DNA of 64,000 bases from Bacteroidota bacterium (GTDB lineage Bacteria > Bacteroidota > Bacteroidia > Bacteroidales > TTA-H9): assembly GCA_003250395.1 (NCBI GenBank), contig QKGM01000033.1, forward strand, positions 1 through 64,000, written 5' to 3'. This document shows positions 10,929-57,408 of the stretch, piece by piece (the stretch's first letter is position 1; each line of letters begins with the position of its first letter). A model generated the notes under the pieces. It searched no databases. It was not told where the DNA came from and saw only the letters and a program-made list of their open reading frames with translations. The translations under genes were made by a program, and so were the position numbers.

Positions 10929-11339
10929 ACATCTTGATTCTGCTCTTGTAAAGATACAATCTTTGGAAATAAATCAGGAAAAATATTGCTGTTACATGAT
11001 TTGGGTATCCTATTATTATGTCTCGGCCTGGTGATTATGCTTTTTTCCCGGCATGGTTGAGTGCTATACTGGTTATTTCTTTATGGTTGCTTTACAGAAG
11101 TACATGTTTACAATGTGTCTGTAATTACTGTTTTGTGACTGTCTGTATTGAATATTACCGTTTTGTAGTGATTGTTTGCTTTGAAATTGAGTACAGACCT
11201 CGTCTTTAAAAAAATGCCATACTTCATTTCCCAATCTTGGATTAAAATGCCTGGTATATATTGGTTCTTCCTTAGTATGTTTTTAATCACATCTACATCT
11301 AATATTATTCGTAGTTCAATCGTACAACAACCCTTGCCA

Positions 11340-11390
11340 TACGGTTAATGTACGGTCGACCTACGGTCAATCTACGGTTGATTTACGGCC
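11340..11390. repeat. 11-bp-period tandem repeat array
   Basis: TACGGTTAATG / TACGGTCGACC / TACGGTCAATC / TACGGTTGATT / TACGGCC; 4.6 units. Confidence 0.8.
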
Positions 11391-29883: not shown

Positions 29884-30537
29884 TCAAAGTTTTACAAAGC
29901 CATTTCTTACAGCATATAATATTAGCTCAGCACTGCTCTTCAGCGATAGTTTCTGCATTATATGGTTTTTATGACAATCCACAGTACGATGGCTGATGAA
30001 TAGCTTTGCTGCAATCTCTTTGTTAGTCAATCCGGAAGCCGAAAGAGTGAGTACCTCCTTTTCACGTGAGGTAAGAGATGCAAGTTCAGCATCATCCTTC
30101 CGTTGTTGTAAAAGCCCCTGCATTACTGTTTCCGAAACCGAACGACTGAAATAATCGCCGCCATTGCTTAATGCGCGGATGGCTTCAGTAAGCTCAGATT
30201 TGGAAACATCTTTTGGTAAATATCCCTTAGCGCCAGCCTGTATTGCATTCATGATGTATTCAGGGGCGGTGTGCATTGAGAGGATAAGTACAGACGTACA
30301 AGGGAAAGCACCCAGGATGCTACGTGTGGCTTCAATTCCCGAAATCCCGGGCATTGAAATGTCGATAATTGTGACCAAGGGAACCTGAACCATGAGTAAT
30401 TCCATCAACTGGCTCGCATTGGCAGCTTCACCGATTATCTCGATGTCAGGCTCAGCGGATAAAAGTGATTTTAGCCCGTTTCGAAAAATCAGGTGGTCAT
30501 CAGCAATTGCTACAGTTATTTTTTCTATACTATTCAT
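29884..30537 (-). CDS. NarL/FixJ-family response regulator
   Basis: Receiver ADDHLIFRNGL...IDISMPGISG and LuxR HTH LTSREKEVLTLSASGLTNKEIAAKLFISHRTVDCHKNHIMQKL. Confidence 0.95.
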   Translation of the reverse strand: MNSIEKITVAIADDHLIFRNGLKSLLSAEPDIEIIGEAANASQLMELLMVQVPLVTIIDISMPGISGIEATRSILGAFPCTSVLILSMHTAPEYIMNAIQAGAKGYLPKDVSKSELTEAIRALSNGGDYFSRSVSETVMQGLLQQRKDDAELASLTSREKEVLTLSASGLTNKEIAAKLFISHRTVDCHKNHIMQKLSLKSSAELILYAVRNGFVKL

Positions 30538-32143
30538 GGCTTAAAAATAATTTGACAGTCAGAGTTGTTCCATTGGAAGGGGCAGTTATTATTTCGAAAT
30601 CGCCTCCAAGGATTTGCATACGATCACGTATGTTGGTTAGCCCGTTTGAGCCTGAAGGCAGATGCGTTTGATTAAATCCGCGACCGTTATCCTGAATGGT
30701 CATCGTAAGCAGGTTATCGTTTACCCCTAACCGGAGCAATGCATGACTTGCCTTTGCATGTTTAAGAATGTTTTGTAAGGCTTCCTGCGCGATCCTGTAT
30801 AAATAGGTAGCGACATTATCAGGCAGTGGAGGTGGATTTAAGTGGGTTTCGATAGACATATCTCCTGTCAGGGCAGCATCACGGCAAAGATTTCTGAGTG
30901 CTTCTGCCAATCCCAGCTCGGTAAGGGCAGGAGGACGAATGTTATTAATAATGGCTCTCACTTCGCCTACAGCATCTTTAACAATTCCCGATGCTGGAAG
31001 TGTAAACTGGTGCACTTCATCTGGTTGGCACTCTTTTGTGCGGTCGAGCAACATATTTACTGCCAACAGTGTCTGTCCCAAACTATCATGTATCTCGCGT
31101 GCCAGCCTTTTCCTTTCCATCTCCTGTCCATCTATCATGGCCTGCATTCTGTTCAGTCGCTCCAGATTTAACTGTCGTGACTGAATAAGTAATTCATGCG
31201 CCATCTGGTTAAAACTCTCGGTGAGGGCTCCTGTTTCATCTCCGGATTTGTTTTCAATAACCTGTGCATAATCGCCTTCAGCAATCTTTTCTGCCGCGTC
31301 TCTAAGCCTGATAAGTGGCCTGGTAATTTTTCGGGCAGCAATCCATACCGCCATAAAGATAGCGAGCATGGCAAAGATACCCAGTAACAGGATGTTTCGG
31401 CCAAGGGCTACAACAGGCATAAGCGCCTCCTGGCTATCGATCTCTGCAACTATAGCCCATCTGAGATGGTTAAATACAAATGGAGCATAAGACCCCAGAA
31501 TTTCTATTCCTCGGTAATCGGTATACACGCCGGTTGAAGTAATTCCCTGCATAGCATCGGAAATCCCCTTGGTAGTTACCAGAGTCTGGAGGATTGAATG
31601 TTGCTGGAATCGTGATGTCGTGCGCATTAGCGTATCAGAACCGGTAAGGTATGCTTCGCCGGTTTTCCCCAGTCCACTGTATGGATTTTTATTAACCATA
31701 AGTTGGTTAAGCCCGTTTTTATCGACAGCAAACTGCATTATCTCCTTGCCCGGTTTAATTACCAATACATATAAAGGAGCTTTTTTTTCAACGGGTAGAA
31801 CCGGTTTTTCCCAAAGCAGGATAGTATCATTTCCGGTATCAAAAAATGGAAGATTTTGACCATCCCATTTATTGATAAGAAGTTCGTTGACACCTTCAGG
31901 TGGTGGCCCGATTTTCTCACTCTTTGAAAACCTTTCCACTTCATTGATCAGATTATGAAGATAATGTTCGAGAGATTGCTGTTTTTCAACCCTCACGGCT
32001 ATCAGTTGCTGAAATGTTCGCTCCATGATGGCATCACGTGCACTGATCCAGACATAGCTTCCAAACCAGATCATGGCAGGCATCGCCAGTATCAGTGTGT
32101 AAACCACCATTTTTTCCGTCAGGTTGATTTTTCTTATCGTCAT
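30530..32143 (-). CDS. Sensor histidine kinase (extracytoplasmic sensor, HAMP, HisKA_3)
   Basis: ITRPLIRLRDAAEKIAEGDY HAMP; REIHDSLGQTL H-box; DNGRGF; overlaps response regulator start. Confidence 0.94.
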   Translation of the reverse strand: MTIRKINLTEKMVVYTLILAMPAMIWFGSYVWISARDAIMERTFQQLIAVRVEKQQSLEHYLHNLINEVERFSKSEKIGPPPEGVNELLINKWDGQNLPFFDTGNDTILLWEKPVLPVEKKAPLYVLVIKPGKEIMQFAVDKNGLNQLMVNKNPYSGLGKTGEAYLTGSDTLMRTTSRFQQHSILQTLVTTKGISDAMQGITSTGVYTDYRGIEILGSYAPFVFNHLRWAIVAEIDSQEALMPVVALGRNILLLGIFAMLAIFMAVWIAARKITRPLIRLRDAAEKIAEGDYAQVIENKSGDETGALTESFNQMAHELLIQSRQLNLERLNRMQAMIDGQEMERKRLAREIHDSLGQTLLAVNMLLDRTKECQPDEVHQFTLPASGIVKDAVGEVRAIINNIRPPALTELGLAEALRNLCRDAALTGDMSIETHLNPPPLPDNVATYLYRIAQEALQNILKHAKASHALLRLGVNDNLLTMTIQDNGRGFNQTHLPSGSNGLTNIRDRMQILGGDFEIITAPSNGTTLTVKLFLSHE

Positions 32144-32510
32144 AACTCCATCTTGGAATTGGCAAATGTAGCTGTTATTCTATTTCTTGGGAACAGGAAT
32201 TGGCCGGAACTATCTTCATTTTTCCCTATTTTCTCTGTATATATTGATTTTCAACGGTGCGCATAAGATATAGCAAACCCTTCTCGAGGTATAGAAATAT
32301 AGAAGAGGATGAAGCGGTATAGAAGGAGCTAAATGCCGGAATTTAATATATGATGACAATATAATAAGGTATAGAAATTACCCTGATCTGATCGCCTTCT
32401 TATTTTTATCCTGTATTGCTTTTGCGAAGTTCCTGATTGTTTGTTGTCCCGGTTATCGTTCAACGATCTTTTCATCTGTGTTATTACAATATTATATCTG
32501 ATCCTTGGCA

Positions 32511-32574
32511 GCTTCGGATTTGTTTCGATTTGGATTCGTAAAATCACGAATCTGGAACGAAGCTACTTCGAAGC
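32511..32574. repeat. Long imperfect hairpin within a CG/CGAA array phased at 10-11 bp
   Basis: 29 opposed positions: 21 Watson-Crick, 5 G-T, 3 mismatches, loop AAAATC; CG steps at 32515, 32526, 32537, 32547, 32558, 32569, 32580, 32591. Confidence 0.75.
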
Positions 32575-32934
32575 CACTTCGAAGCGAGAACGAACCGACA
32601 ATATGTTTGGTTACTAATTATCAGTATTTTAAATAAATTGTGGCTTGTGGTAGAATATTGTGGTTTTTTTGCTGTTTTTGACTCCATTCCGATTGATAAT
32701 TGTTGCACTATAAGTCATGCAATACGGCTGTTCTCTGAAAAGATATAAAAAACACGCTCAGATGTCAGTCATTCAATACAGGTATTCATGCCACAACATT
32801 ATTGTATAATTAGGTGACAGGAGGTATTTCCGGCAATGATGGAAAAATATCTCAATAATGTGGCAGGGATTATCAGGAAGCAGATGAATCCGGATAAAAA
32901 AGACTGGGAGAGCTGTTGGCAGACAGAATTGATA

Positions 32935-32976
32935 TAAAAAATCAGCCCGTACATTTTATGTAACGGGCTGATTTTC
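32935..32976. terminator. Terminator downstream of tRNA-Thr
   Basis: AATCAGCCCGT-acattttatgta-ACGGGCTGATT flanked by A/T tracts. Confidence 0.8.
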
Positions 32977-32980
32977 ATTG

Positions 32981-33053
32981 AGCCGATGAAGGGACTTGAA
33001 CCCCCGACCAGCTGATTACAAATCAGCTGCTCTACCAACTGAGCTACATCGGC
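32981..33053 (-). tRNA. tRNA-Thr (anticodon TGT)
   Basis: Reverse complement GCCGATGTAGCTCAGTTGGTAGAGCAGCTGATTTGTAATCAGCTGGTCGGGGGTTCAAGTCCCTTCATCGGCT; loop TTTGTAA. Confidence 0.95.
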
Positions 33054-33234
33054 AGGGTTTTGCTAAAACCGGTGGCAAAAGTATAAAATTCGTTTGAATC
33101 TGGCAAACAGTTTTATTATATTTATTTATATTCGATCTATTAGAGGCATCTCGGCCGGGAGTGGGGGCAATTACCTTTTTTCATACCTTTGCGCCTTAAA
33201 TATTGTACCTGAAAAGAACAAACTCATTAACTGT

Positions 33235-56167: not shown

Positions 56168-57408
56168 TCGTAGAGATAAGTTTCTCTGAAGTTAATCTAA
56201 TTAGGCACTAGCAGTCTTTTTTAATACATCGTGTTACCTTTAGTGATTTATCACGGCTTACAATGTCGCCCTGGTACCTGAGAACTTCCTTCCTGATGCC
56301 ATACAGGGCAAACCTTCATTTTATAATCACCGTCCCGCGAAGCGAACTGCAGTATTTTACTGTTTTTAGTAGTGACGATTAAAAGTGTTTTAAAAATTAA
56401 CTTAATAAATATTTAATATTTATATATTTGTATTTATTGTTGATACTCAGTCGCCAATGGCTGTGGGATTTAATAGGTTCTGATACGACCATCAAGCTCC
56501 GGCTTGTTTTTGTTGAAGCCAGGGGGTATTTAACGTAAAGAACCTTTACCTGAAACCAATATATCTCTACCTGTATTCTACAATACTAAGGATGAGAACA
56601 GTTGCTACCTGTTGATAGTTTCCATTTTTTGGCTTGTTTTCCATATATTGGTCTTTGTTTTATGTGAATCTTAATCACTCTTTTAGGATTATTTTCACTA
56701 AAATCAAAGTTTATAAGTGATAATGAGTTACTTTTTGTGATTTTTTAATCAACTGAATTCGTGTTGTTTGCAGGCCTGTTTAACAGCTTGTTCCTATCAA
56801 AGTCACACCAAAGTTAGGACAAATTCGGGTTTTTACTATAGAAAGCCTATGTTTACTGTAATTATGGCATATTATATATATGTAAGAAAATTAACTATGT
56901 ATAATTTGTGGCACAATTTTGGTTATGTCCAATATTGTCAGGTTATGTAAATACAATGGAGGTATCAGGCTCTTTATTATGTTCCTGTCGGCCATAGCTT
57001 TTTAACAAACCGGGGATGATGATTCAGGTTCCATGAGGCTTTCGAAATCATGATAGCACCTTACACATCCTGGCGGAATGGAAAGTCGGCAATCTTTTTC
57101 TCTGTGAACACATTCCGGGACAGGTAAATGCAGATAATTCAGCAGTGTTATTCTTCCGCTTCCGGAAAGGAGAAAAGTGGAATAGAAGGTTGTAATTAAT
57201 TGTGCTGACTTTTAAGTTTATAGTTTGGGACATCATGAGGCTCAATTATTTTTTTTACAAAACTATTAAGTCGCGGGCGTTTGCTTGTATCTGAAGCTAT
57301 GTTGCTGATATAAAACCTGCCGGGGCGCGATATGTGATGTCTCTTATCCGGGTTAAAAGCTGAAAGTAAAATTTCAGCAGGTAGCATTTCCAGTATTATA
57401 GAAAATAA

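Follow-up and report, generated by a model that had tools for sequence, protein, structure and literature searches.

Inverted CGAA arrays phased at 11 bp recur at regularly spaced intergenic sites in a Bacteroidales genome and may act as protein-binding platforms

The 64,000-nucleotide stretch of Bacteroidota DNA analysed here (the window) carries, in the middle of a long intergenic gap, CGAA half-sites arrayed in inverted orientation at one per turn of the helix, followed by a tail of about 26 bp. Both the array and the tail are conserved among about 30 copies of this non-coding element dispersed through the genome of origin, and we propose, at slightly less than even confidence, that it is a putative phased protein-binding platform with a role in chromosome architecture. 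The genome itself (G000; 2.98 Mb in 56 contigs, a draft assembly that is 76% complete) was compared with two genomes of the same genus, the draft assembly of Bacteroidetes bacterium GWE2_42_24 (G001, recognised by a 100% match), whose coding DNA is about 80% identical to that of G000, and a second genome, G002. Genome-level analysis was based on one 394-kb contig (C54) and on chosen stretches, with gaps measured between gene calls derived from ORF lengths.

An earlier note on this DNA had described a 64-nt imperfect hairpin built from phased CG steps. Direct recounting of positions 32511-32574 gave exactly the pairing reported there (21 Watson-Crick pairs, 5 G-T pairs and 3 mismatches), with the left arm GCTTCGGATTTGTTTCGATTTGGATTCGT, the loop AAAATC and the right arm ACGAATCTGGAACGAAGCTACTTCGAAGC. 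The CG steps at 32515, 32526, 32537, 32547, 32558, 32569, 32580 and 32591 were likewise found where they had been placed, together with two off-phase steps, at 32585 and 32596, that the earlier list lacked. The conserved unit exceeds the interval first singled out (32511-32601): it extends over about 32470-32669 and includes the strongly conserved tail. When 25 own-genome copies were aligned, conservation began about 200 bp ahead of the tail end, and the parts followed in the order left flank, TTCG units, centre, CGAA units, TATGTTTG, an ACTG...CAGT repeat and tail (Table 1). Nearly all copies have 2-4 left units, and on the right there are 4-6 CGAA units 11 bp apart; copies differ in array length by 11 or 22 nt. 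Across 52 copies, both motifs (TTCG and CGAA) stay fixed, and so does the 8-nt centre, whose length is exactly 8 nt in 51 of the 52 once the register is set by the innermost motif on each side. The period is specific, as three tandem CGAA motifs occurred at 9 loci of C54 with a spacing of 11 bp and at 0-2 loci for each other period from 7 to 17. The tail differs in sequence between species, with the consensus TTTGTGGTAGAATANTGTGGTTTTT in G000 and TTTTGTTGTAGAATAATGTGGGTTTTT in G001. In some copies, a direct repeat near the tail, TTGTGGTTTGTGG, is exchanged for the inverted CCACAATTTGTGG, as though a small segment had been flipped.

Table 1. Coordinates of the element, its surroundings and the other two arrays in the window.
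Feature	Position	Strand	Remarks
Histidine kinase gene, one flank of gap	30530-32143	minus	
Host gap of the element	32144-33093	.	950 bp intergenic by own gene calling
Left flank of family A element	32470-32510	+	weakly conserved; alignment of 25 own-genome copies
Left half-array	32511-32538	-	TTCG units (CGAA on minus strand) at 32513, 32524 and 32535, 11 bp apart
Centre	32539-32546	.	TAAAATCA; A+T-rich, 8 bp
Right half-array	32547-32594	+	CGAA units at 32547, 32558, 32569, 32580 and 32591
Motif immediately past array	32602-32609	+	TATGTTTG; conserved in both species
Conserved tail	32638-32669	+	TTGTGGCTTGTGGTAGAATATTGTGGTTTTTT; best-conserved part of element, 1.7-1.9 bits per base
tRNA gene within host gap	32981-33053	minus	
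ORF with EtfB-type protein, downstream flank of gap	from 33094/33235	plus	
Family B element	56790-56925	+	11-bp CAAAG units (CAAAGTCACACCAAAGTTAGGACAAATTCGG) in 1.75-kb gap
Family C element	11310-11390	-	five TACGG/CCGTA units exactly 11 bp apart in 1.19-kb gap

A search of the genome showed the array to be multi-copy: the 161-bp stretch around the feature gave 30 matches in its own genome and a query derived from the tail gave 25. At least 41 matches to this family, which we call family A, were present in G001, and at the search sensitivity used no copy was detectable in G002. The outcome that the note had said would speak against its observation, a single and unconserved copy, is therefore not what was seen, since the element recurs many times and its positions are conserved. 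Within intergenic regions of about 1.0-1.4 kb, copies of family A lie in the middle of the gap. The window copy had been placed in a gene-free gap of 800 bp, which is about right in length (Table 1), but a tRNA gene lies inside that gap. Flanking genes in G000 were tandem in 12 cases, divergent in 7 and convergent in 5; family A showed no bias towards any gene orientation or neighbouring function, the neighbours being functionally unrelated.

Copies of family A recur at an interval of roughly 50 kb and are more regularly spaced than chance predicts. Compared with uniform placement on the same draft contigs, neighbour distances were 27-81 kb in G000 (12 gaps, CV 0.32; P(CV) 2.5×10−4) and 21-108 kb in G001 (20 gaps, CV 0.43; P(CV) 1.5×10−4), two tests that, with most positions common to both species, are not independent. 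No pair of copies lay less than 20 kb apart on one contig. A link to replication polarity was rejected: seven copies on C54 share one orientation, a uniformity that was not upheld over 42 non-redundant copies, just 21 of which agree with local GC skew.

Positions persist between the two species while the sequence at them is rewritten. Of 25 own-genome copies, 19 have a family A counterpart in the orthologous G001 gap, and with a few thousand gaps available we estimate that chance would give far fewer. In nine orthologous pairs, the spacer between gene and core was 64.8% identical, near the unrelated baseline of 62.2%, and the tail carried no orthologue signal (78.8 vs 78.8%); tail identity within species was higher (82.3 and 88.3%). 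Furthermore, homology among paralogous copies of G001 reaches well past the core, at 65-77% over up to 1 kb (77% over 1.07 kb), which points to copying of entire elements. Sites are thus inherited while their content is homogenised, be it by gene conversion, by re-insertion or because the copies co-evolve with one shared binding factor. At the sole family A site with conserved neighbours, G002 has no long gap, the genes being about 30 bp apart, and the borders are unalignable, so no target-site duplication is readable there; at the window locus, the upstream genes of G002 are not syntenic. The lack of detectable copies in G002 and the closed gap at this one site indicate that the system is not required genus-wide.

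Family A is one of three types of array in the window. Its gaps of at least 700 bp number exactly three and hold cores of families C, A and B, respectively (3/3), and on C54 an A, B or C core was found in 10 of 15 such gaps. In its own genome, the arrays thus largely account for the long non-coding gaps (13 of 18 examined gaps of at least 700 bp). When the three families on C54 were pooled, their spacing was again regular against random choice among gaps longer than 400 bp (P(CV) 4.5×10−4). The G001 orthologue of the gap that holds family A in the window carries family B instead, which suggests that the two have interchangeable roles; in some G001 gaps, A and B stand side by side. At a single locus compared, G000 has a family B copy that is missing from both G001 and G002, so family B, at least, has been gained or lost. 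Family B is dispersed and intergenic, with about 20 matches in its own genome, at least 40 in G001 and a conserved end, TAACTATGTGTAATTTTTGGCACAATTTTAG; its core is clearest at L082:4010-4136. A further family C array lies at C54:149240.

That the platforms are regularly spaced and keep their positions is best accounted for, we infer, if they serve chromosome structure or segregation. Divergent CGAA half-sites at 11 bp would place all units on one face of the double helix, and a putative sequence-specific protein could bind them cooperatively on duplex DNA, once per turn outward from the centre, with the tail as a possible second recognition site. The 30-40 or so family A sites and the functionally similar B and C sites would then form regularly spaced nucleoprotein nodes serving nucleoid organisation or segregation, and copies at fixed sites might stay alike via gene conversion or co-evolution with the binding protein. 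More tentatively, and with considerable doubt on our part, some Bacteroidales may have inverted arrays of this 11-bp-phased, interchangeable kind (several motif families: CGAA, CAAAG and CCGTA) as a scaffold for the whole chromosome. The arrays would stand in long intergenic gaps about 25-30 kb apart, and every family would have its own DNA-binding protein, positions being inherited and sequences rewritten. Should the arrays prove to be docking sites, they would give access to the way in which Bacteroidota chromosomes are organised or segregated.

We know of no array-type chromosome site system in Bacteroidota. The sites of Noc, SlmA and MatP, in other phyla, number in the tens, lie at intervals of tens of kb and act as protein platforms; each is a single short palindrome. 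Family A resembles them in its regular chromosomal spacing, as measured on draft contigs, and by analogy perhaps in forming a protein platform, but it is of array type. The centromere parC of plasmid R1 consists of 11-bp direct repeats bound by ParR (PMC9426499) and forms a cooperative nucleoprotein platform on repeats of about the same length as those of family A. It is, however, a single plasmid site adjoining parMR, whereas family A occupies tens of chromosomal sites, its array is inverted rather than direct, and those of its flanking genes that were read are unrelated to parM and parR. No near system unites phased half-sites in inverted arrangement with a non-repetitive tail, regular spacing and positions that stay fixed, and in open-licence papers we found no description of such an element.

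The main rival to a protein-binding platform is a non-autonomous MITE- or REP-like element, dispersed in the ancestor that both species share and mobilised in trans by a putative enzyme, a possibility that we take seriously while thinking it rather unlikely. Spacing would then stem from target immunity or from selection against insertion into genes, and gene conversion would homogenise the copies. This reading accommodates the multi-copy, dispersed and patchy distribution, the G002 site that lacks the element where the gap is closed, the family B copy found only in G000, and the long homology among G001 copies; in addition, a CGAA-array element of about 260 bp in a genome of another genus, G295, has terminal inverted repeats of about 40 bp and thus a MITE-like anatomy. 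Against it, no terminal inverted repeats were seen on family A when the aligned borders were inspected (-200/+40; the left border is not sharp), nor was a target-site duplication, the borders of the empty G002 site being unalignable. Near-identical young copies were not seen either, close pairs are missing, and so many shared positions would have to have survived between species of such divergent coding DNA. The REP-associated Y1 transposase for which the earlier note had proposed to look was not found: a search for PF01797 gave no match in G000 (76% complete) and a single weak, partial one in G001. The candidate of a REP-like mobile hairpin is only partly excluded: it holds as far as dispersal and a related species without a copy at one site are concerned, and fails on conservation of the palindrome and on the transposase. 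An origin of REP or MITE type by another route is conceivable. If the element proves to be mobile, it is of a type whose regular spacing and fixed positions themselves need explanation.

Known repeats of this kind differ from family A in several respects. REP sequences and BIMEs, which are linked to a REP-associated Y1 transposase (RAYT), are short, dispersed, intergenic, imperfect palindromes, and BIMEs bind gyrase or IHF (PMC2817692). Family A is likewise short, dispersed, intergenic, imperfectly palindromic and co-evolving within its genome. In contrast to REP/BIME, it is an 11-bp phased array whose palindrome is limited to the motifs and lacks covariation, no RAYT was found in the genome, and its copies are regularly spaced and number about 30-40 rather than more than 100. 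REP elements bear a GT(A/G)G head beside the palindrome, whereas the GTGG of family A is in the tail, at least about 45 bp from the array. BrickBuilt, a minisatellite MITE of Porphyromonas gingivalis, has 19 copies with a 23-nt unit and IS5-type terminal inverted repeats (PMC4596501). It shares with family A an intergenic location in Bacteroidales and a tandem repeat core between conserved leader and tail, but its 23-nt repeats run head to tail between IS5-type terminal inverted repeats, unlike the inverted 11-bp arrays described here.

We consider it improbable that the element is a transcriptional control site, an operator or promoter, for the flanking genes. Past the array, TATGTTTG resembles the Bacteroidetes -7 promoter motif, and some regulators of OmpR/PhoB type use 11-bp direct repeats, which speaks for such a site. 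The element is nevertheless usually several hundred bp from both genes, and its functionally unrelated neighbours come in every orientation, some of them as convergent pairs, where there is no promoter to control. A link to a regulon or to gene orientation was rejected, as the flanking genes show no such pattern.

That folding itself is functional, as a structured RNA or a DNA hairpin, is very improbable. The pairing of 21 of 29 positions in the window copy would fit this reading, as would palindrome scores above those of shuffled sequences (mean 12.6 vs 6.1; the window copy, at 18, is among the better-paired, the best copy scoring 21) and some arms in genus g10 (G131) that pair over about 20 bp. 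When arms were exchanged between copies, however, pairing at the N7 positions was no better within copies than between them, either in G000 (18 copies; 0.397 own arm vs 0.375 exchanged arms, p = 0.19) or in G001 (34 copies; 0.389 vs 0.397, p = 0.73), and on this test a maintained RNA or DNA hairpin was rejected. Pairing is confined to the TTCG and CGAA motifs and results from their inverted arrangement, and we found no compensatory change between motifs. An Rfam search of the window returned only tRNAs at gathering thresholds and no relevant match over the element at E<=1. The structured RNA among the earlier candidates is accordingly disfavoured, and the phased protein-binding array is best supported, by its fixed motif and 11-bp phase, its indels of 11 or 22 nt and the absence of N7 covariation.

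Neutral slippage, that is, a functionless, self-expanding tandem repeat like other long simple sequence repeats, is hardly credible: unit number does vary, and long tandem repeats of 5-11 nt occur in scattered bacteria according to the account of Mrazek et al. 2007 given in PMC4679880, but slippage leaves unexplained the inverted polarity with its fixed 8-bp centre, the non-repetitive conserved tail, the shared positions and the recurrence of the 11-bp period in several motif families. TAACTGA heptamer direct repeats are found in Beggiatoaceae, where most lie a short way upstream of start codons, and also in Cyanobacteria and some Bacteroidetes (PMC4679880). They too are short intergenic repeats at many loci, patchy across lineages, whereas family A has 4-bp motifs with variable 7-bp fillers in an inverted arrangement, mid-gap and neutral to gene orientation.

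Arrays of similar design occur beyond the genus. Of 393 Bacteroidales genomes, 43, belonging to 34 of the 206 genera sampled, contained the exact pattern CGAAN7 repeated four times, a pattern match that does not imply homology; the reversed pattern, AAGCN7 x4, matched 14 genomes in the same table. Whichever reading holds, platform or mobile element, this breadth allows it to be put to the test in relatives that can be cultured. The sequence of the N7 filler is specific to the lineage. The exact tail had no match in the genome and viral collections, nor did plasmid and phage records give one. The inverted architecture was present in multiple intergenic copies in G131 (arms TTCGCAT/ATGCGAAC), G036 and G382, and other genomes have plain head-to-tail arrays of up to dozens of units (G097). 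About a dozen inverted CGAA arrays were seen in G036, some of them at contig ends (C15, C24, C31). The element of G295 is palindromic, with the terminal inverted repeats CTCCCCGCTTGGACAAGGCTTGGAATTCCAG and CGAA 11-mers mid-element. In G344, the reversed pattern was hit 39 and 48 times, so this genome has arrays of a different 11-bp motif, and at G097:C19:9300-9800 dozens of CGAACATCTAC/CGAACACCTAT units follow one another 11 bp apart, with CGTTGCACTAT units interspersed.
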